35,346 bases of DNA from Candidatus Ruminococcus equi. GTDB lineage: Bacteria; Bacillota; Clostridia; Oscillospirales; Acutalibacteraceae. The position numbers were made by a program, and so were the translations under genes. Shown in pieces: positions 4,682 to 27,821 of this stretch. Within the stretch, counting starts at the first letter, position 1. Every line of letters begins with the position of its first letter. The notes below the pieces were generated by a model, which made no database searches, was not told the DNA's origin, and worked only from the letters and a program-made list of their open reading frames with translations. Where the stretch lies: assembly GCA_018065465.1 (NCBI GenBank), contig JAGHTC010000037.1, positions 1 through 35,346 on the forward strand. The letters are read 5' to 3'.

Positions 4682-5737
4682 CTAAACTACAACAGTAAAA
4701 AGAATTACCACTCCGATAACAATGGATAAAACTCCCAACGCCTTTTCGATATACCTGCCTTTTTCCTCGTCTTTTTTGCACAGTTTGCGTGAAAGTCGTC
4801 CGACATCACCGAACAGAATATAAGGCAGTCCCGTAAAGAAAACGAAGATAATGAGGAAATTGCATATTTGAATGTACAAGGGGTCCGCGCTTACTCCGGC
4901 ATCCTGCGTTATCATCGCATAAATATAGTAAAACTCAAAAAAGAAATAGCAAGATAGAATAACCGTCATAAAAATTTTCAGCAATACACTTTTTCCGCGA
5001 AAACCGGGTAGCGGACGATACTTTCTGTCGTCTGTTCTTTTGCCGAGTATTGCTAACTTAAGTTGTGAAATATTGCTGTATCGTTTATCTTTATCTATTT
5101 CGGTGCATTTTTCTATTATCGGCGTGAAAAAGCCTTGATAAATTTCCTCGTTAATCAGTTTTCCTGTCAAAAGAAAGTTCATCAAAACTCCACAGGAATA
5201 TATATCTGCTTTGTTGTCGGTTTGAGAAAATCCGAACTGTTCGGGAGAAGCATAGCCAACAGTACCGAGAATTTCAGTATCTTGATTTGCACCCCTTTTA
5301 ACTTCTCTGCTGATATCATAGTCAATGATTTTGATATTGCCGCTACGGTCAATCATAATATTTTCGGGCTTGATATCGCGGTGAACTATCCCGTTGTAAT
5401 GCAAAGCAGAAAGCCCATCACACACCGAGAGCATAATGGCTTTTGTTTCCTTTTCGGTGAATGTACCGTAACGCTCAACTCTGTCGCAAAGCGAAATCCC
5501 GTCTATATATTCGCAAAGGCAGACACATCTGTTGTCGATTATAGCAACATCAAAAATTTTCATAAGATATTTACAGGAAATACGGCTGACTTTTTGCATA
5601 ACTTCAAAACTGTCTTTGCTCAAAACCCGCTTTATCATCAGTTGCCCGCTTGCCCTGTTTCTTACGACAAAAGTATTGTTATTCAGTTTTGATATCTCAT
5701 CATTTTGCCATAACGCAAACTTTTGTGTATCTGTCAT
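4682..5737 (-). CDS. membrane-anchored Ser/Thr protein kinase (Hanks type)
   Basis: The 351-residue protein has an N-terminal kinase domain (about 15-240) and three membrane helices in the last ~100 residues. Visible kinase features are the ATP-binding Lys in LMIK (K36), the catalytic loop IVHRDIKPENIMID (HRD at 119-121), IIDYDIS in place of the usual DFG motif (DYD at 139-141), and GTVGYASPEQFG (SPE at 164-166). The metal-binding Asp is kept, so activity is plausible. There are no PASTA repeats, unlike the PrkC/PknB cell-wall kinases. The ATG at 5737 is preferred over an upstream start at 5767 because AAGGGG lies 5 bases before it. It is divergent from an HTH gene 97 bases away, which may be its partner. 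Confidence 0.9.
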   Translation of the reverse strand: MTDTQKFALWQNDEISKLNNNTFVVRNRASGQLMIKRVLSKDSFEVMQKVSRISCKYLMKIFDVAIIDNRCVCLCEYIDGISLCDRVERYGTFTEKETKAIMLSVCDGLSALHYNGIVHRDIKPENIMIDRSGNIKIIDYDISREVKRGANQDTEILGTVGYASPEQFGFSQTDNKADIYSCGVLMNFLLTGKLINEEIYQGFFTPIIEKCTEIDKDKRYSNISQLKLAILGKRTDDRKYRPLPGFRGKSVLLKIFMTVILSCYFFFEFYYIYAMITQDAGVSADPLYIQICNFLIIFVFFTGLPYILFGDVGRLSRKLCKKDEEKGRYIEKALGVLSIVIGVVILFTVVV

Positions 5738-12576: not shown

Positions 12577-12602
12577 AAAATAGTAGAACTTTCTACTATT
12601 TT
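12577..12602. promoter_or_regulatory. MarR operator
   Basis: AAAATAGTAGAA (12577-12588), two central bases, then TTCTACTATTTT (12591-12602): a perfect 12+12 palindrome. It covers the predicted transcription start and part of the -10 box, and ends at the ribosome site of marR. Size and position fit a MarR dimer repressing its own operon. Confidence 0.8.
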
Positions 12603-12626
12603 AGCACAAGTGTCCGTTAATTGCAA
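12598..12626 (-). promoter_or_regulatory. sigma-A promoter of the MarR-MATE operon
   Basis: Minus strand TTGCAA (12621-12626), 17 bases, TAAAAT (12598-12603). The -10 overlaps the MarR palindrome. Confidence 0.65.
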
Positions 12627-12639
12627 TAAAAGTTGCAAT

Positions 12640-12718
12640 AAACATCAAATTGCTTATTTTAGCAAAAAATTCAAAAAATTATGCCCGTTAGAGAATCAAT
12701 TCTAATGGGCATAAGTTT
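12640..12718 (+). repeat. dispersed structured repeat, copy B (diverged)
   Basis: AAACATCAAATTGC matches copies A and C. The small hairpin is TTGCT-TATTTT-AGCAA (12650-12665), with the same six-base loop and a swapped closing pair relative to the other copies. The large hairpin differs in sequence: TTATGCCCGTTAGA pairs with TCTAATGGGCATAA around 12679-12714, with one G-U pair only in plus-strand RNA, followed by GTTTTCTTT. It lies between divergent genes, where a plus-strand terminator has no evident client. Confidence 0.6.
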
Positions 12719-12788
12719 TCTTTATAAAAAGTCCTTAAATTTTATATTGTTTTTTATTACAAGTTTTTTGTTTTATAATGCTCCAAAA

Positions 12789-12817
12789 TTGTCACATACC
12801 CTTTGATACAATATAAT
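12789..12817 (+). promoter_or_regulatory. promoter of the coiled-coil/LRR operon with a putative WYL site
   Basis: TTGTCA (12789-12794), 17 bases, TATAAT (12812-12817) is a near-consensus sigma-A promoter. The -35 is part of TTGTCACATA (12789-12798), a 10-mer found twice more in the window, both times at the WYL regulator's own promoter. A protein bound there would block RNA polymerase. Confidence 0.75.
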
Positions 12818-12840
12818 TATCAACTTTTGGAGGGATGAAT

Positions 12841-13692
12841 ATGGCAAACAAAGAACAAGTAAACGCAGTTAAAAAGGCATTGGAGTTGACTTCTCAAATT
12901 GAACTGGAAAAGTCGAATCTCGCAAGGTACAAAGCAGAAAGGTTTAGAGCAAAGCCAAAACCACCTACTCACGAAACGGTAACGGCTACATATCCTCAAA
13001 TCAAATCGGATATAAAATTTTGGTCGCCTATCTTGTTGCTAACCATAGTGTTTTTACCGTTTCCGCTGATTTACTACTATTTAGTATATAAACCAAAACA
13101 CGAAGAAGATATAGAGAGAATTCGTAACAGTGAAGAGTATAAAAAGCAGTGTTCTGATATTGATAAGGAAGTAAGTCGAAAGCAAAAAGAGATTGACGAT
13201 GCTTTTGAGAAAGCGACAAAAGAATATAACGAAGTAACAATTCCAAATTACGAACAAGAAAAAGCAAAATGGGAAGATGATATAAAACAAAAAATCGCCG
13301 ACTCAAAATCAAGACTTGAAAACACACAAAACGAATTAGAAGAGTTATATAACTCTACAAGAATACTGCCTATGCAGTACAGGAGTATTGATGCTTTGGA
13401 GTATATCTACAACACGATTTATGCATCAGAATACGACATCAAAGGTGCGATTGAGTTATATGACAAACACTTGCAGCGTTGTCTTGACGAAGAAATATTG
13501 CGTGAACAACAACTTGCAAATGCACTCGCTGATGAGCAAAATATGTTAGCAGCTCAACAGATAGAAGCAACAGAAAGACAGAGCGAAGAAATACGCAAAG
13601 CAAAGAATCATCAAGATATAGCAAATGCAATCGGCGCAGTCCAGCGCCACAACACAAACAAGGCGGTAAAAAACCACTTCGGGAAAAAATAA
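12841..13692 (+). CDS. coiled-coil membrane protein, putatively WYL-regulated
   Basis: The 283-residue protein has one hydrophobic segment (about 60-83: FWSPILLLTIVFLPFPLIYYYLV) between charged helices. Residues about 8-40, 86-170 and 215-262 are rich in Glu, Lys, Gln and Ala with heptad-like spacing, so long coiled coils are expected. No enzyme motif or signal peptide is seen. The ATG at 12841 is preferred to the one at 12835, which is 1 base from GGAGG. The next gene, an LRR protein, starts 24 bases after its stop codon. Similar TM-plus-coiled-coil proteins occur in gut Firmicutes without known function. A structural or membrane-remodelling role, or a sensor in a host-defence cassette, would be guesses. 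Confidence 0.75.
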   Translation: MANKEQVNAVKKALELTSQIELEKSNLARYKAERFRAKPKPPTHETVTATYPQIKSDIKFWSPILLLTIVFLPFPLIYYYLVYKPKHEEDIERIRNSEEYKKQCSDIDKEVSRKQKEIDDAFEKATKEYNEVTIPNYEQEKAKWEDDIKQKIADSKSRLENTQNELEELYNSTRILPMQYRSIDALEYIYNTIYASEYDIKGAIELYDKHLQRCLDEEILREQQLANALADEQNMLAAQQIEATERQSEEIRKAKNHQDIANAIGAVQRHNTNKAVKNHFGKK

Positions 13693-13716
13693 CAGATATA
13701 AAGGATAGGTAAAAAT

Positions 13717-14130
13717 ATGAGTGATTTATCAGATTTTATAGTTAAAAACGGTGTGCTTACGAAGTACACAGGAAATGATGCAGATGTAACACTTCCCGAC
13801 AACGTAACGAGTATTGGAAATTGGGCGTTTTTTAGTTGTTTAAGTCTTAATAGCGTTACAATTCCTTATGGTGTGACAAGTATAGGAAACAATGCATTCT
13901 ATGATTGTTCGAATCTTTATAGTGTCATAATCCCCAATAGCGTAGCGAGTATTGGAGAAAGTGCATTTGAAGGATGTACAAACCTTGAGGGTATAATAAT
14001 CCCAGATAGTGTGACAAGTATTGGAGATTTTGCATTTAGTGAGTGCCCAAGTCTAGTAATTCACACTACCGCAGGAAGTTGTGCAGAAAAATATGCAAAA
14101 GAAAACGACATAGAATATGTAATAGAATAA
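13717..14130 (+). CDS. small BspA-type leucine-rich-repeat protein without signal peptide
   Basis: The 137-residue protein consists of a short N-terminal cap (SDFIVKNGVLTKYTGNDADVTLPD) and four LRR_5 repeats of about 23 residues. The repeats read VTSIGxxAFxxCxxLxxVxIPxS and start at about residues 29, 52, 75 and 98; the last one runs into the usual end CAEKYAKENDIEYVIE. BspA-type LRR proteins are usually long, secreted adhesins with dozens of repeats. This one has no signal peptide or anchor and so should stay in the cytoplasm, where an LRR commonly serves as a protein-binding surface. AAAGGA precedes the ATG. It shares a transcript with the coiled-coil membrane protein and a strong terminator follows. 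Confidence 0.88.
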   Translation: MSDLSDFIVKNGVLTKYTGNDADVTLPDNVTSIGNWAFFSCLSLNSVTIPYGVTSIGNNAFYDCSNLYSVIIPNSVASIGESAFEGCTNLEGIIIPDSVTSIGDFAFSECPSLVIHTTAGSCAEKYAKENDIEYVIE

Positions 14131-14147
14131 CAAAAAGCAATAAAAAA

Positions 14148-14186
14148 CACCGTCACTATCAATTAAGTAGTGACGGTGCTTTGTTG
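14148..14186. terminator. bidirectional terminator between convergent operons
   Basis: CACCGTCACTA (14148-14158) pairs with TAGTGACGGTG (14168-14178). On the plus strand a moderate T-rich tail follows (CTTTGTTGTT); on the minus strand the tail is TTTTTTATT. It separates the LRR operon from the WYL operon. Confidence 0.88.
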
Positions 14187-14192
14187 TTAGTA

Positions 14193-14258
14193 TTAAAAAT
14201 TAAAAGCATCAAAAACCTGGTCTGTACATGATGTGCGTAGTAATTCAATTTTGCTCAT
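14193..14258 (-). other. possible 21-residue ORF after the unknown gene
   Basis: MSKIELLRTSCTDQVFDAFNF then TAA, starting 13 bases after the stop codon of the 188-residue protein. No clear ribosome site. It could be the surviving start of a truncated gene or a chance frame. Confidence 0.2.
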
Positions 14259-14271
14259 ATTGCGCTATCCA

Positions 14272-14838
14272 TTAATTCCAGTTTATTAAGTCAAATAATA
14301 AATTCCCGCCGTCGTGCCCATTTTCTATAAGTTTATTATGTATTTCTTTCTGGACACATAGATATTCTTTTTTGTCCATTTTTGTCCATACAGTATGCTT
14401 TGTTCCTAACTTGTTAAGAATATTACTATCAATCGGACAGTCATATCCAATAGAATCTATTTTGTATCCTCTAAAAATAGGTTTGTCAAATTCATATAGA
14501 CAAACTAAATATTTAAGAGTCATATTTACTAATTTTTGTATAGCACCAAACTCTACATTAGGAAATTTTTTACACAAGTAGCAAATCAAATCAGATGATT
14601 TAGCAGGCATGTTATTATTACATAATTTTTTTTCAGTGATATACTTGTATAAAACAATAACAAGTGAATTTTCGTTTGAACCATTCTTTGAATTACAATA
14701 ATTTGGCAAATAAAATCTTCCACTCAATACATCACGATGAGCTTTGAAAACTGCATCGTATATTCTATCTTTTTCTTTGCTTTTTGGCGGAATTGTTTCT
14801 CTCAAAAGAAATTGCACAATCAATTTGTTATTTAGCAT
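14272..14838 (-). CDS. unrecognised 188-residue protein in the WYL operon
   Basis: This soluble protein has no signal peptide or membrane helix. Its N-terminal half is helical and basic (FLLRETIPPKSKEKDRIYDAVFKAHRDVL). Its centre has three cysteines in KKLCNNNM and LICYLCKKFP, and the C-terminal part has CPIDSNILNKLG and ends in GHDGGNLLFDLINWN. I do not recognise a family. The ATG at 14838 is used because GGGAG lies 7 bases upstream. It follows the WYL gene by 16 bases, so it is co-transcribed and controlled by the same sites. The coding sequence is more AT-rich than the rnf or ABC genes, which suggests acquisition by transfer. Candidate roles are effector or partner of the regulated system. 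Confidence 0.7.
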   Translation of the reverse strand: MLNNKLIVQFLLRETIPPKSKEKDRIYDAVFKAHRDVLSGRFYLPNYCNSKNGSNENSLVIVLYKYITEKKLCNNNMPAKSSDLICYLCKKFPNVEFGAIQKLVNMTLKYLVCLYEFDKPIFRGYKIDSIGYDCPIDSNILNKLGTKHTVWTKMDKKEYLCVQKEIHNKLIENGHDGGNLLFDLINWN

Positions 14839-14854
14839 AATAAAACTCCCTTTA

Positions 14855-15910
14855 TTAATTATCATATTTTTCTACCGCTTTTTGTAGGCGGTTTTTTACT
14901 TTTTCTGCGAGATGTTTCGGCTCTAACACTACAACATCGGGTGCAAAACTTTGGGCGAAATGCTCGATTGACATTGCGTTTGCGTTGACTGTAACCGTAA
15001 CGCCGTTTTCATCTTCATTTGAAAAACTGACATCTTTTCCAAACATATCAATTATATCACTTATCATCGGTTTAACAATACGCAGTTTTGCCTTGCAGTT
15101 GTCGCTTGAATACATATACACATGGCTTTTCATATATTTAGAAAGGTCAAGCGGCATTTTATTTGCACCCTGTAAGGTTTCAAAAGGTTTAACACTTTCG
15201 TCTAAAATCTCAATGTCTTTCATTCTGTCAATTCGATAGTTTGAAATATCGTTGTATTTGTCAAAATTGCAGATGAGATAATACTTGCCTTCTTTTGCCG
15301 CCATTTGGTATGGACTGACAATATAAATTTCTGAGCCGTCATAGCGTTTTTTTGGGTGCATTTTCTTGTCAGTTTGGTATTCAAGATAGCGAAAAGCGAT
15401 TTTCTTTTTATGTGAGATTGCCTCGTCTATTTGTTCAACATTGAAGAATACTTGCTTGTTGTCTGTACTGTTGTCCTGCATTGTCGCAATGTGCTTTACA
15501 CGAGAGCGAAAGTATATGTTAGAAAGTCCTTCTAACTTGTCAACGAGTTCTTTGCATTGACTGTACGGCACATGCTTTGAAAAGAGAAGTCCGTCTATAA
15601 GTAGCCTTAGTTCGCCGTCTGTAAAGTCCCTGACAAGATAGAAGTCCGATAGCATATAACTTTCTTCCATTTCGCCCGTTTTAGGGTTTTTGACCATACG
15701 ACAAGACTCGCTGTATTCAATCTCGTATCCAAACTCAATAAGGTTCATAAGATTGCGTTTAATAGATTTGCGGTCTGTTTTCATATTGTATTCTTTTTTC
15801 AAAATATCTTCGATTTCCTTTTGACTGAGCCTGTGATTTTCGTCAGTATATTTCTTCAAAATATCAAGGATATTCATTATCATAAGTTTCTTCGGTTGCT
15901 TTGCGTTCAT
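14855..15910 (-). CDS. WYL-domain transcriptional regulator
   Basis: The 351-residue protein has an N-terminal HTH (about 1-70, with LSQKEIEDILKKEYNMKTDRKSIKRNLMNL), a WYL sensor domain (about 150-245), and a C-terminal WCX extension (about 255-340). In the WYL domain the stretches IAFRYLEYQTDKK, YIVSPYQMAAKEGKYYLICNF and SNYRIDRMKDIEIL are typical. WYL regulators often bind nucleic acid or nucleotide ligands and in many bacteria control phage-defence islands (BrxR and CapW types). GAGGAGG precedes the ATG. Two copies of TTGTCACATA flank its promoter, and a third lies at the neighbouring operon, so it probably regulates itself and that operon. The Arg in RIDR expected for ligand binding is present. 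Confidence 0.93.
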   Translation of the reverse strand: MNAKQPKKLMIMNILDILKKYTDENHRLSQKEIEDILKKEYNMKTDRKSIKRNLMNLIEFGYEIEYSESCRMVKNPKTGEMEESYMLSDFYLVRDFTDGELRLLIDGLLFSKHVPYSQCKELVDKLEGLSNIYFRSRVKHIATMQDNSTDNKQVFFNVEQIDEAISHKKKIAFRYLEYQTDKKMHPKKRYDGSEIYIVSPYQMAAKEGKYYLICNFDKYNDISNYRIDRMKDIEILDESVKPFETLQGANKMPLDLSKYMKSHVYMYSSDNCKAKLRIVKPMISDIIDMFGKDVSFSNEDENGVTVTVNANAMSIEHFAQSFAPDVVVLEPKHLAEKVKNRLQKAVEKYDN

Positions 15911-15961
15911 ATTGTTGCCTCCTCGCTTTATCTATATATTACCACAGCAGATGCCCCCTTT

Positions 15962-15971
15962 TTGTCACATA
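15962..15971. promoter_or_regulatory. putative WYL operator, proximal copy
   Basis: TTGTCACATA (TATGTGACAA on the gene strand) covers the predicted start of transcription of the WYL gene, about 50 bases before its ATG. It shares 16 of 17 bases with the distal copy (CCCxTTTTTGTCACATA). Confidence 0.6.
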
Positions 15972-15972
15972 G

Positions 15973-16001
15973 ATTATATAATATAACTTGCAAATTTTCA
16001 A
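15973..16001 (-). promoter_or_regulatory. sigma-A promoter of the WYL operon
   Basis: Minus strand TTGAAA (15996-16001), 17 bases, TATAAT (15973-15978). It is bracketed by the two putative operators, a layout suited to repression by looping or by blocking both ends. Confidence 0.8.
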
Positions 16002-16017
16002 TATAAGTATCCCATTT

Positions 16018-16027
16018 TTGTCACATA
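16018..16027. promoter_or_regulatory. putative WYL operator, distal copy
   Basis: Second TTGTCACATA, same orientation as the proximal copy and 56 bases from it, upstream of the -35 box. Confidence 0.6.
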
Positions 16028-16164
16028 AAGTTTAGTAAAAAAACGCTTGCCTTTTAGATTGCAGAAAATGTTTCAACAACTGGAACTGTATTGTTCTTTT
16101 CTATGGAATTAAGTCGAGAGAAAACAAAAAGTAATAATTAGCTGATGTAATTAAACAAACATCA
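16028..16164. other. AT-rich stretch with nothing recognised
   Basis: Between the distal WYL site and repeat copy C no open frame, promoter or strong hairpin is seen. With the flanking elements it makes a gene-free gap of about 450 bases (15911-16364). Confidence 0.5.
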
Positions 16165-16246
16165 AACAAACATCAAATTGCATATTTTTGCAAAACTCTG
16201 CAAAAAAGAAATCGCTTGGTAGCCGTATAATGGCTTTGCCAAGCGA
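16165..16246 (+). repeat. dispersed structured repeat, copy C
   Basis: It matches copy A at roughly nine bases in ten over 82 positions. The small hairpin TTGCA-TATTTT-TGCAA is at 16178-16193, and the large hairpin CGCTTGG/CCAAGCG has inner AGCC/GGCT. An extra tandem AAACAAACATC unit precedes it (16154-16174). Unlike copy A, no T run follows on the plus strand, but TTTCTTTTTT follows on the minus strand. Confidence 0.75.
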
Positions 16247-16364: not shown

Positions 16365-16440
<76 letters not shown>

Positions 16441-17067: not shown

Positions 17068-18435
17068 ATGGCAGAAAAACTGATTTTTCCGAAGCACGCT
17101 TATCGTACACACGGAGGAGTTCACGCCCCTCACAACAAGAACACGGCACAAAAAGAGTCTGTTGTGATGACGGATGTAAAGAGCGTAACTATTCCGATGA
17201 GTATGCACATAGGCGCACCGTGCAAGCCCACGGTCAAAATCGGCGACACCGTCAAAATCGGCGATATTATCGGCGACAGCGAGGCATTTGTATCCGCACC
17301 TATTCACGCGAGCATTTCGGGAACAGTCAAAAAGATTGACAAAATTACTATGCCCGATTCGTCAAAGGTCGATGCGATTACCATCGAATCCGACGGCGAG
17401 ATGGCAGTATCCGAAAGTGTAAAAGCACCAGAGGTTGAGAACCTCGACGACCTACTCAAAGCCGTAAGGCAAAGCGGTCTTGTCGGCTTGGGCGGTGCAG
17501 GTTTTCCCGCACACGTTAAGTTGAACATTCCAAAAGGCAAAACCGTTGACACCCTCATCATCAATGTTGCCGAATGTGAGCCTTACATAACAAGTGACCA
17601 CAGAGAAGTTATAGAAAACAGTTGGGATATTATGGCGGGCGTTTACGCCGTTAAGGATATTCTCGACATTCACAGAGTTATCATCGGTATTGAAAACAAT
17701 AAACCAGATGCAATAAAAATCTTAAGAGAGATTGCCGACAACGAAGTTGACAAATACGACGAAGTCCGAGTTCTTCCGCTGAAAGCATCTTACCCGCAGG
17801 GCGCAGAGAAAATACTCATCAAAGCCTGCACCAACCGCGAAGTACCGATAGGCGGACTTCCCGCAGATGCCGGATGTATCGTTATGAATGTCGGCTCGAT
17901 TTCGTTCCTGTCAAGATACTTAAAAACAGGTATGCCACTTGTGACAAAACGAATCACCGTTGACGGCACTGCGATAAACAATCCGCAAAATGTTATCGCC
18001 CCAATCGGCACACCGATAAAAGACATTATCGAGTTTTGCGGTGGCTACAAAGGCGAGCCGAAGAAACTCCTTATGGGCGGTCCGATGATGGGTAATTCAC
18101 TTGCAGATGATTCTATGCCTGTGATAAAACAGACAAACGCAATAATCGCTTTCGCAGAAAAGGAAGCAAAACTGCAAACACCCTCTGCCTGTATCAGATG
18201 CGGCAGATGCGTTAGTGCCTGCCCGATGAAACTTATGCCCCAGTCGCTGTCGAATGCTGTCGACAGAAAAGACTTTGAGGCACTTTCAAAACTCAACATA
18301 TTAAACTGTATGGAATGTGGATGTTGTTCTTTCTCCTGTCCTGCAAAACGCCATATTGTTCAAAATTTGAGGCTTGGAAAACAACTCTACAATAACTACA
18401 AAAAAGAACAGGCACAAAAGGAGGCGAAAGAGTAA
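17068..18435 (+). CDS. rnfC: Rnf electron transport complex subunit RnfC
   Basis: RnfC is the peripheral, NADH-binding subunit of the Rnf complex, which couples ferredoxin oxidation and NAD+ reduction to Na+ or H+ export. The 455-residue protein begins with the typical HGGVHAPHNK segment, followed by a barrel-sandwich domain (about 30-115). A glycine-rich NADH/FMN-binding region follows (GLGGAGFPAHVKL at about 140; NVAECEPYI at about 170). Two [4Fe-4S] motifs lie at about 375 (CIRCGRCVSACP) and 414 (CMECGCCSFSCP). AAGGGG precedes the ATG. Its stop codon overlaps the rnfD start by one base. It is the first gene of a six-gene operon in the standard clostridial order C-D-G-E-A-B. Confidence 0.96.
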   Translation: MAEKLIFPKHAYRTHGGVHAPHNKNTAQKESVVMTDVKSVTIPMSMHIGAPCKPTVKIGDTVKIGDIIGDSEAFVSAPIHASISGTVKKIDKITMPDSSKVDAITIESDGEMAVSESVKAPEVENLDDLLKAVRQSGLVGLGGAGFPAHVKLNIPKGKTVDTLIINVAECEPYITSDHREVIENSWDIMAGVYAVKDILDIHRVIIGIENNKPDAIKILREIADNEVDKYDEVRVLPLKASYPQGAEKILIKACTNREVPIGGLPADAGCIVMNVGSISFLSRYLKTGMPLVTKRITVDGTAINNPQNVIAPIGTPIKDIIEFCGGYKGEPKKLLMGGPMMGNSLADDSMPVIKQTNAIIAFAEKEAKLQTPSACIRCGRCVSACPMKLMPQSLSNAVDRKDFEALSKLNILNCMECGCCSFSCPAKRHIVQNLRLGKQLYNNYKKEQAQKEAKE

Positions 18436-19373
18436 TGGAAAACAAACTTTATGTAAGTTCTTCTCCGCATTTGAGCTCAAATGCAAGCACAAGAAGAATT
18501 ATGCTTGATGTCATTATCGCTCTTTTGCCGACATCCGTTGCCGCTTGTATCATCTTCGGTATGCGTTCGCTTGTACTCATCGGTGTATGTGTTGCATCCT
18601 GTGTGCTGTGTGAATATATCGCAAGAAAGATTATGAAGCGTGACACAACTATCGGTGATTTGTCCGCTGTTGTCACAGGACTTTTGCTTGCGCTCAATCT
18701 CCCCGTAAACATAAATCCGCTTATCGCCGTTTTCGGCTGTATTGTTGCTATTGTTGCTGTAAAACAACTTTTCGGCGGTATCGGTATGAACTTTGTAAAC
18801 CCCGCTTTGGCAGCAAGAATCGTTCTGCTCGTTTCTTTCCCCAACGATATGATGACATATCCGAAAGCCTTTTTCTACAAAGAGGGCGTTGATGCTTTAA
18901 CTTCCGCTACCCCTCTTTCCGATATCGGCTCATACTCATACATAGAATTGTTCCTCGGTAAATGCCCCGGATGTATCGGCGAAGTTTGTGCCGCTGCTTT
19001 GATACTCGGCGGTATCTACCTTGTAATTCGAAAAGTAATCAGCCCCGTTATTCCCGTTGTATATGTCGGCGTTGCTGCCTTGATGACACTTGTTGTCGGC
19101 GGTGACCCCTTGTATCAGATTCTTTCGGGCGGTCTTTTGCTTGGTGCTATCTTTATGGCTACCGACTACACAACATCACCGATTACTTTCTCGGGAAAAA
19201 TCATTTTCGCCGCAGGTTGCGGTATCCTCACTATCCTTTTGCGTACATATTCGAATATGCCCGAGGGCGTATCGTTCTCCATCCTGCTTATGAATGTACT
19301 TGTTCCTCATATTGAAAACCTGACCACTCCGAAATCGCTCGGCACGGTCAAAAAAGCAAAGGGGGAGAAATAA
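18435..19373 (+). CDS. rnfD: Rnf complex membrane subunit RnfD
   Basis: This is a 312-residue integral membrane subunit with about nine helices. It carries covalently bound FMN on the threonine of the D-x-T-S-A-T motif, seen here as DALTSATPL (T159). GIGMNFVNPALAARI at about 115-130 is strongly conserved. RnfD sits in the ion-translocating core with RnfA, E and G. GGAGG lies a few bases upstream inside rnfC, and the start codon shares one base with the rnfC stop; the same one-base overlap (TAATG) joins it to rnfG. Confidence 0.96.
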   Translation: MENKLYVSSSPHLSSNASTRRIMLDVIIALLPTSVAACIIFGMRSLVLIGVCVASCVLCEYIARKIMKRDTTIGDLSAVVTGLLLALNLPVNINPLIAVFGCIVAIVAVKQLFGGIGMNFVNPALAARIVLLVSFPNDMMTYPKAFFYKEGVDALTSATPLSDIGSYSYIELFLGKCPGCIGEVCAAALILGGIYLVIRKVISPVIPVVYVGVAALMTLVVGGDPLYQILSGGLLLGAIFMATDYTTSPITFSGKIIFAAGCGILTILLRTYSNMPEGVSFSILLMNVLVPHIENLTTPKSLGTVKKAKGEK

Positions 19374-27741: not shown

Positions 27742-27821
27742 TATTTTCATTTACTTTATATTTCCAACATAAATCTGTCACATTGAATGTTTATTATTAA
27801 AATAGTAAAGGAGGGCAAAAT

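Follow-up and report, generated by a model that had tools for sequence, protein, structure and literature searches.

A shared palindromic operator points to a probable small WYL-controlled module with two unannotated protein families in Candidatus Ruminococcus equi

Introduction

BrxR is a WYL protein described as repressing its own promoter and a second promoter of a defence island via inverted repeats (PMC9122601, PMC9122589), and section 3.8 of PMC9503650 describes predicted WYL- or Nudix-regulated mosaics directed against ADP-ribosylation, with phosphatases, NADAR or Macro proteins and nucleases. Here we analyse a locus of Candidatus Ruminococcus equi in which the genes of a WYL regulator and of a protein that we call X197 form one operon, convergent with a second operon encoding a coiled-coil protein (COIL) and a small leucine-rich repeat (LRR) protein. 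The window under study is the whole of contig JAGHTC010000037.1, which comprises 35,346 bases of a 1.73-Mb genome. A preliminary description of this DNA, made from its letters, had noticed a repeated 10-mer near both promoters and proposed that the four genes form one system under a shared operator. We consider it likely that the locus is a small autoregulated, WYL-controlled conflict or genome-maintenance module coupling the wyl-X197 and COIL-LRR operons. WYL-regulated islands are themselves known, and what is new is a variant of such conflict islands with two unannotated protein families. In the literature as covered by titles and first lines, excluding subscription papers and bioRxiv manuscripts outside PMC, we found no description of the operator or of the gene set.

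Results

To define the operator from sequence outside the window, the upstream regions of 70 WYL matches in other genomes were reduced to 42 distinct ones, of which 23 were kept (score above 430 bits and identity above 45%), with the window's own WYL upstream region excluded. A purpose-written expectation-maximization search for a 20-bp palindromic motif returned ATGGGACAATATTGTCCCAT, with a log-likelihood of 130.7 compared to 32.3-35.7 in six shuffled sets. By this comparison the putative operator consists of two 7-bp half-sites separated by 6 bp, a 20-bp pseudo-palindrome with the family consensus ATGGGAC-N6-GTCCCAT, and the 10-mer of the preliminary description, TTGTCACATA, is one half of it. 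Such dyad symmetry leads us to expect binding by a dimer. Of the 23 relatives, 17 have a site of at least 14 bits in the WYL upstream region, and 13 of these sites start 73-80 bases ahead of the start codon. As judged by eye, 6 bases separate the second half-site from the TTG of a -35 box in 13 of the 17.

Scanning the window with this matrix, we found that the top three of 35,327 positions were 12778 (score 14.8), 15951 (13.5) and 16007 (12.7), with the fourth-best position at 8.7. The same three sites again ranked first to third in palindromic models 18, 20 and 22 bp wide, built with one near-duplicate relative dropped. We accept these sites, O1 to O3, as real operators because a matrix built from the WYL promoters of other genomes ranks exactly these three first. 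The features of the locus are as follows.

Operator O1: 12778..12797, plus strand; ATGCTCC-AAAATT-GTCACAT; first among 35,327 window positions by the matrix from other genomes, and rank 1 in repeat models.
COIL/LRR operon promoter: 12789..12817, plus strand; TTGTCA-17-TATAAT; 11 of 12 consensus bases.
COIL: 12841..13692, plus strand; coiled-coil protein of 283 amino acids (alignment of 28 relatives, AlphaFold2 model, hydropathy).
LRR gene: 13717..14130, plus strand; small BspA-type LRR protein of 137 amino acids, second gene of the COIL operon (PF13306, E 6.5e-31).
Terminator-like stem-loop: 14148..14178, plus strand; 3' of the LRR gene, with a 12-pair stem and a T-rich tail.
X197: 14272..14838, minus strand; 188 amino acids from the ATG at 14838 (the longest open reading frame, or ORF, has 197); second gene of the WYL operon.
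WYL regulator: 14855..15910, minus strand; 351 amino acids with WYL and WCX domains.
Operator O2: 15951..15970, minus strand; plus-strand letters ATGCCCC-CTTTTT-GTCACAT; rank 2, and rank 2 or 3 in repeat models.
WYL-X197 promoter: 15973..16001, minus strand; TTGAAA-17-TATAAT; 11 of 12 consensus bases.
Operator O3: 16007..16026, minus strand; plus-strand letters GTATCCC-ATTTTT-GTCACAT; rank 3, and rank 2 or 3 in repeat models.

Both promoters of the locus, which are the top two promoter matches in 12600-16200, thus carry the putative operator. Most of the first TTGTCACATA lies within O1, a site that overlaps the COIL/LRR -35 box. At the WYL promoter, O2 starts 2 bases after the -10 box and spans the likely transcription start, and O3 ends 5 bases upstream of the -35 box, nearly where most relatives have their operator.

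The 10-mer itself lies exactly where the preliminary description had placed it, at 12789-12798, 15962-15971 and 16018-16027, all on the plus strand, the last two copies standing 56 bases apart and bracketing the WYL promoter. The first copy had been said to overlap the -35 box of the COIL/LRR operon, and its TTGTCA is itself that box. Taken alone, the counts of the 10-mer are marginal: the window holds seven matches to TTGTCACATA with at most one mismatch against 3.06 expected, a count that 3 of 100 shuffles reach, and the organism's own genome holds eight exact copies (three in the window) compared to four for the reversed control. The pattern RTRNNCCNNNNNNGTCACAT with at most one mismatch gives 9 forward and 8 reverse matches in the genome, with a perfect palindrome on contig C65 counted on both strands, compared to 2 and 3 for the reversed control. 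Its exact matches number four, the three window sites and one inside a predicted 65-residue ORF (contig C94), and none of the five other genomic copies of the 10-mer is among the RTRNNCCNNNNNNGTCACAT matches; the surroundings of 7 of the 13 places outside the window were inspected. The perfect palindrome on C65 (13363-13382, L190; ATGTGAC-N6-GTCACAT) was considered as an operator and rejected, as it looks like a terminator, flanked by an A run and a T run where two convergent ORFs meet. A related 8-mer near 27777, in which the preliminary description had seen a hint of chance, lies at 27776 with a matrix score of -3.2 and is not an operator site.

We then scanned related loci with the WYL-promoter matrix at a score of at least 12, taking the expectation from first-order random sequence, and found 41 sites where 4.9 were expected in 15 loci with the WYL subfamily (245 kb; L131 and L136 are left out of this set, as is L140, a duplicate of L052). 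Of the 41, nine stand before WYL genes and 22 before other genes, whose upstream regions total 12.8 kb; a further 8 are in the remaining intergenic DNA, and 2 fall within genes, which make up 208 kb. In contrast, a control of 17 COIL loci without the WYL subfamily, among them four weak COIL matches (L055, L056, L091, L092), gave 5 sites versus 3.9 expected, one upstream of a gene and three inside genes. Target gene families were assigned by domain scan, and others by BLAST.

AAA-M41 ATPases: L044, L050, L052, L130.
Metallophosphoesterases: L044, L126.
DarT1-type NADAR antitoxin heading a WYL operon: L045.
UvrD-type helicase, also matching GajB models: L048.
SNF2-type helicases: L049 (protein scanned), with relatives of that protein in L050 and L051.
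DnaB-C ATPase and pentapeptide protein: L049.
PD-(D/E)XK nuclease: L053.
DNA polymerase III alpha-like protein: L052.
X197 gene: L140.
P154-DSP-NADAR-COIL gene row: L075, L076 (score 14.7).

In the island of L049 as many as six promoters are preceded by this operator. One COIL locus, L072, has a site scoring 15.2 at 54 bases before COIL, with no WYL gene in the 11.9 kb examined, and weak sites precede COIL in L078 (10.8) and L044 (10.2). Related WYL islands thus have the operator before conflict-type and repair-type genes, in line with the remark in the preliminary description that WYL regulators often control defence islands.

The regulator matches PF13280 at 46.5 bits (cut-off 21.8, E 3.6e-12) and PF25583 (WCX) at 27.4 bits (cut-off 23.9, E 4.4e-6), and its N-terminal DNA-binding domain has no Pfam match over the cut-off. 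A first scan of genome contigs with the single WYL sequence found no relative. The subfamily, defined at E 1e-80, is present in 22 of 345 genomes sampled from the order, X197 in 11 of 200 genomes of the family and 16 of 394 of the order, and COIL, at E 0.001, in 5 of 200 of the family (three strong, including the window's own) and 9 of 394 of the order, the genome samples for the three overlapping. Relatives with named records are mostly uncultured Clostridia, several of them from animal guts (horse faeces, goat caecum, water-deer rumen), together with Anaeromassilibacillus senegalensis An867. The viral collection IMG/VR holds three distant WYL relatives (L197-L199) and one distant COIL relative (L196).

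The three genes recur together in other genomes. Among 18 distinct COIL loci (leaving out duplicates L054 and L085, weak matches L055, L056, L091 and L092, and L084 and L090, which have no matching ORF), the WYL family is found in five (the window, L044, L075, L076 and, distantly, L081) and X197 in seven (the window, L044, L074, L075, L076, L088 and L089). COIL relatives thus occur beside the WYL subfamily, the association on which the preliminary description had staked its proposal, and beside X197. Examining 26 of 32 X197 matches, in stretches of differing length, we found a WYL gene in 10 (the window, L044, L046, L049, L126, L130, L131, L135, L136 and L140). The window, L075 and L076 share the layout of COIL facing X197 and WYL on the opposite strand, and L044 has WYL, NADAR, X197 and COIL in that order on one strand. 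L075 and L076 are nearly identical in WYL (95%), COIL (97%), NADAR (93%) and the flanking DNA on both sides (89-96%), whereas the DNA alignment breaks off between COIL and WYL, and the two X197 proteins share only 26% identity over 165 residues. By this sequence comparison X197 looks like an exchangeable effector, since replacement of one gene in a conserved module typifies the effectors or specificity parts of conflict systems.

We place the start of X197 at 14838. X197 has no Pfam match and at least 640 relatives, 120 of which were usable among the matches listed. Residues Q101, K102, N105, K109, P135, D137, W151 and Y159 are invariant in all 162 aligned proteins, an alignment from which three pieces are left out: those of L052 and L143, each located at the end of a contig or stretch, and the second, diverged gene in L089. 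Another alignment (A3) used 36 of 43 proteins, leaving out the self match and six shorter or partial ones. The second X197-like gene of L089 (10686-11408) stands beside COIL and has R and E in place of the invariant K and D, like an inactive paralogue; the organism's own genome has a second, diverged X197 gene on contig C19 (L128:696-1295), a 6.3-kb contig without WYL or COIL. X197 was not found in phage and plasmid collections searched by tblastn, nor in IMG/VR by peptide scan.

The predicted fold of X197 weakly resembles HhH-GPD DNA glycosylases (OGG2/AGOG), so that X197 could be a highly diverged, 8-oxoguanine-type member of that group, a DNA glycosylase or lyase attacking modified or damaged DNA. 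We hold this reading tentatively and think it rather unlikely. Besides the weak fold similarity, X197 has an invariant Lys and Asp, K102 and D137, spaced 35 residues apart, which would be candidates for the catalytic pair of the glycosylases. However, the sequence tests give no support: no match of X197 to a family model or to a solved member was found, none of the scanned members matches Pfam OGG (PF21790), and no PF21790 protein was found for a profile comparison, the model having 0 matches in sets of 20, 149 and 6 genomes or records, where its control was silent as well. PF22175 matched 9 of 61 genomes, and the five readable proteins look like Nth. A comparison of X197 with a viral fold library gave a best E of 0.30. 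Uracil DNA glycosylases have another fold than HhH-GPD. A functional analogue for the glycosylase reading is Brig1, a glycosylase described as having an anti-phage role, whose reported structural matches are uracil DNA glycosylases (PMC11078745).

COIL begins at 12841 rather than at the first ATG (12835), as judged from the ribosome-binding site by eye and the family alignment. It has one hydrophobic segment at about residues 53-85, followed by two long helices joined by a conserved hinge (AlphaFold2 model, pLDDT 88, pTM 0.58), no Pfam family over the cut-off, and a best E of 5.4 in a predicted-fold search. In COIL loci without WYL, a small XRE-type gene is often found upstream (L073, L077, L080, L089), and a small serine-recombinase (resolvase) gene lies within two genes downstream in L073, L074, L080, L088 and L089, Pfam-confirmed in L088 only. 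COIL with an XRE-type gene and a recombinase appears to be a variant of the module in which one regulator stands in for another.

The fourth gene fared differently. Its product has LRR_5 repeats (PF13306, 107.3 bits against a cut-off of 27.7) and, by eye, no signal peptide. The preliminary description had counted it as a partner, but among the 17 other COIL loci BLAST finds an LRR gene in L079 only, where it encodes 1,240 amino acids and lies two genes away from COIL. Across 59 other loci, BLAST from the window's LRR protein finds LRR genes in L079, L126 (two) and L129, all large (759 to 1,329 amino acids); only the 759-residue protein of L126 starts like the window's, without a signal peptide by eye, and its gene lies directly upstream of WYL-X197. 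We dropped the LRR gene as a core member since relatives' loci rarely carry a comparable one. The proposed joint system is therefore retained in large part: the matrix ranks bear out a shared operator on the WYL and COIL promoters, and neither a conserved partnership of the LRR gene nor the suggested pairing of COIL and LRR as effector and sensor finds support.

Elsewhere in the window, a phage-type integrase gene (202-1341, PF00589) adjoins a tRNA-Trp gene (1498-1573) at the contig end, a possible integrated element, and a tRNA-Thr gene (16365-16440) just beyond the WYL side of the module is a possible island boundary. A serine/threonine protein kinase gene (PF00069) lies at 4682-5737, and RnfC and RnfD/E-type genes at 17068-19373 form the beginning of an Rnf-like electron transport operon.

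Discussion

We infer for this locus that a dimeric WYL protein would bind the 20-bp pseudo-palindrome at O1 to O3, coupling the convergent operons wyl-X197 and COIL-LRR, and would most likely repress both. Repression is favoured over activation because both promoters come close to the consensus and because the COIL -35 box and the WYL start point are covered by operator sites. The WYL/WCX part may sense DNA damage or infection through a nucleic acid or a nucleotide, upon which repression would be lifted and X197, as the exchangeable effector, would be made together with membrane-anchored COIL in a conditional defence or genome-maintenance response. By analogy with BrxR, both operons are probably kept silent by a WYL dimer until a nucleic-acid-type signal relieves the repression.

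Several observations weigh against this account. The operator was recovered with palindromic models of certain widths: at 22 bp the fourth-best window position is level with the third (10.9), a 16-bp palindromic model converged on a promoter-like motif, and 14- and 20-bp non-palindromic models locked on a half-site plus the -35 box, the latter three without ranking the window sites. Six of the 23 relatives have no scored site before WYL, including three of the closest (L015, L016, L017). In the locus of L016 (L045) the site stands before the NADAR gene heading the operon, and L159 and L023 seem by eye to carry the dyad with a 7- or 5-bp gap; the remaining three without a scored site are L015, L017 and L158. 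Thirteen of the 18 COIL loci lack such a WYL gene in the DNA read, several having a small XRE-type regulator upstream instead, although some COIL contigs are short and gene absences there are not proof. Finally, a site just upstream of the -35 box, as in most relatives, suits an activator as well as a repressor, and the WYL regulators SiwR, PafBC and DriD are described as activators.

The main rival explanation builds on these last points, and would have the WYL protein, like those three, switch both operons on when bound to single-stranded DNA after damage. The 6-bp distance from operator to -35 box in most relatives with a scored site fits this, as does the precedent of SiwR, which is described as activating a neighbouring operon, binding single-stranded DNA through its WYL domain and binding at the -26 region (PMC10693628). 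However, the window's promoters, at 11 of 12 consensus bases, should need no activator, and at O2, which lies over the likely start point, an activator would be an obstacle; we think activation improbable here, and repression remains the reading we prefer. The module could also be part of an ADP-ribosylation response, as predicted for the WYL- or Nudix-regulated mosaics of section 3.8 of PMC9503650. NADAR, with a DSP-like phosphatase in L075 and L076 or metallophosphoesterases in L044, accompanies COIL, X197 and WYL there, and L045 has WYL, NADAR and a DSP-like gene, the DSP match lying below its Pfam cut-off. Against this, the window's module shows no gene for NADAR, a phosphatase or an ADP-ribosylglycohydrolase; for the last of these none was found among the proteins scanned, no search aimed at that family having been made. 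We consider such a response unlikely to be the function of the window's module.

That the shared 10-mer is a chance repeat and the genes unrelated neighbours is very improbable. BspA-type LRR genes are common in such genomes, and the counts of the 10-mer are by themselves marginal, but an independent matrix ranks the sites first to third, the target sites are enriched in WYL loci and near expectation in the negative control, and the same three-gene layout returns in L075 and L076.

The gene cluster probably belongs to an apparently undescribed family of jointly controlled islands of Clostridia that are likely related to stress or viruses. A bolder reading, speculative and in our estimate unlikely to hold in full, is that the window represents, in its simplest version, a hitherto undescribed class of conflict island of Clostridia, in which a WYL sensor and a 20-bp palindrome would switch many promoters of exchangeable repair or conflict genes, with X197, perhaps a new HhH glycosylase branch directed against altered (phage) DNA, as the core effector beside membrane-anchored COIL. 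Defence islands are usually found by their genes, whereas here the regulator's operator lets an island be read from DNA alone. The operator points to genes without an assigned function, X197 with its hundreds of relatives and COIL, that are apparently switched together with known conflict genes, and it offers a handle on what the WYL regulators of gut Clostridia sense and which uncharacterised genes join the response. The swap of X197 between near-identical loci is what would be expected of an effector in an arms race.

In comparison with known systems, PADLOC places none of the four proteins in a described system apart from generic or weak matches: the WYL protein meets generic CRISPR-associated WYL models and, in part, Cas3c (E 2e-5), the coiled-coil protein COIL meets JetC weakly (E 0.019), and X197 and the LRR protein have no match. 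The mosaics of PMC9503650 resemble the related islands in combining a WYL regulator with exchangeable phosphatases, NADAR, nucleases and helicases; unlike them, the module here has X197 and COIL, to which section 3.8 describes nothing similar. CapW of CBASS is placed beside the BrxR-type regulators. It is to these that the locus is closest: in both, a one-component WYL regulator goes with inverted repeats at its own promoter and at another promoter of the island, as judged here from the DNA sequence, and the site of Acinetobacter BrxR is described as overlapping a -35 box, as O1 does at the COIL promoter. In contrast to BrxR-type islands, no gene of the window is a PADLOC effector, and the half-sites described for BrxR measure 11 bp with a 5-bp gap (plasmid pEFER) or 10 bp with a 5-bp gap (Acinetobacter), compared to 7 bp with a 6-bp gap here. 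Because half-site and spacer sizes differ, we do not file the window's regulator as BrxR and liken it to BrxR in its working.

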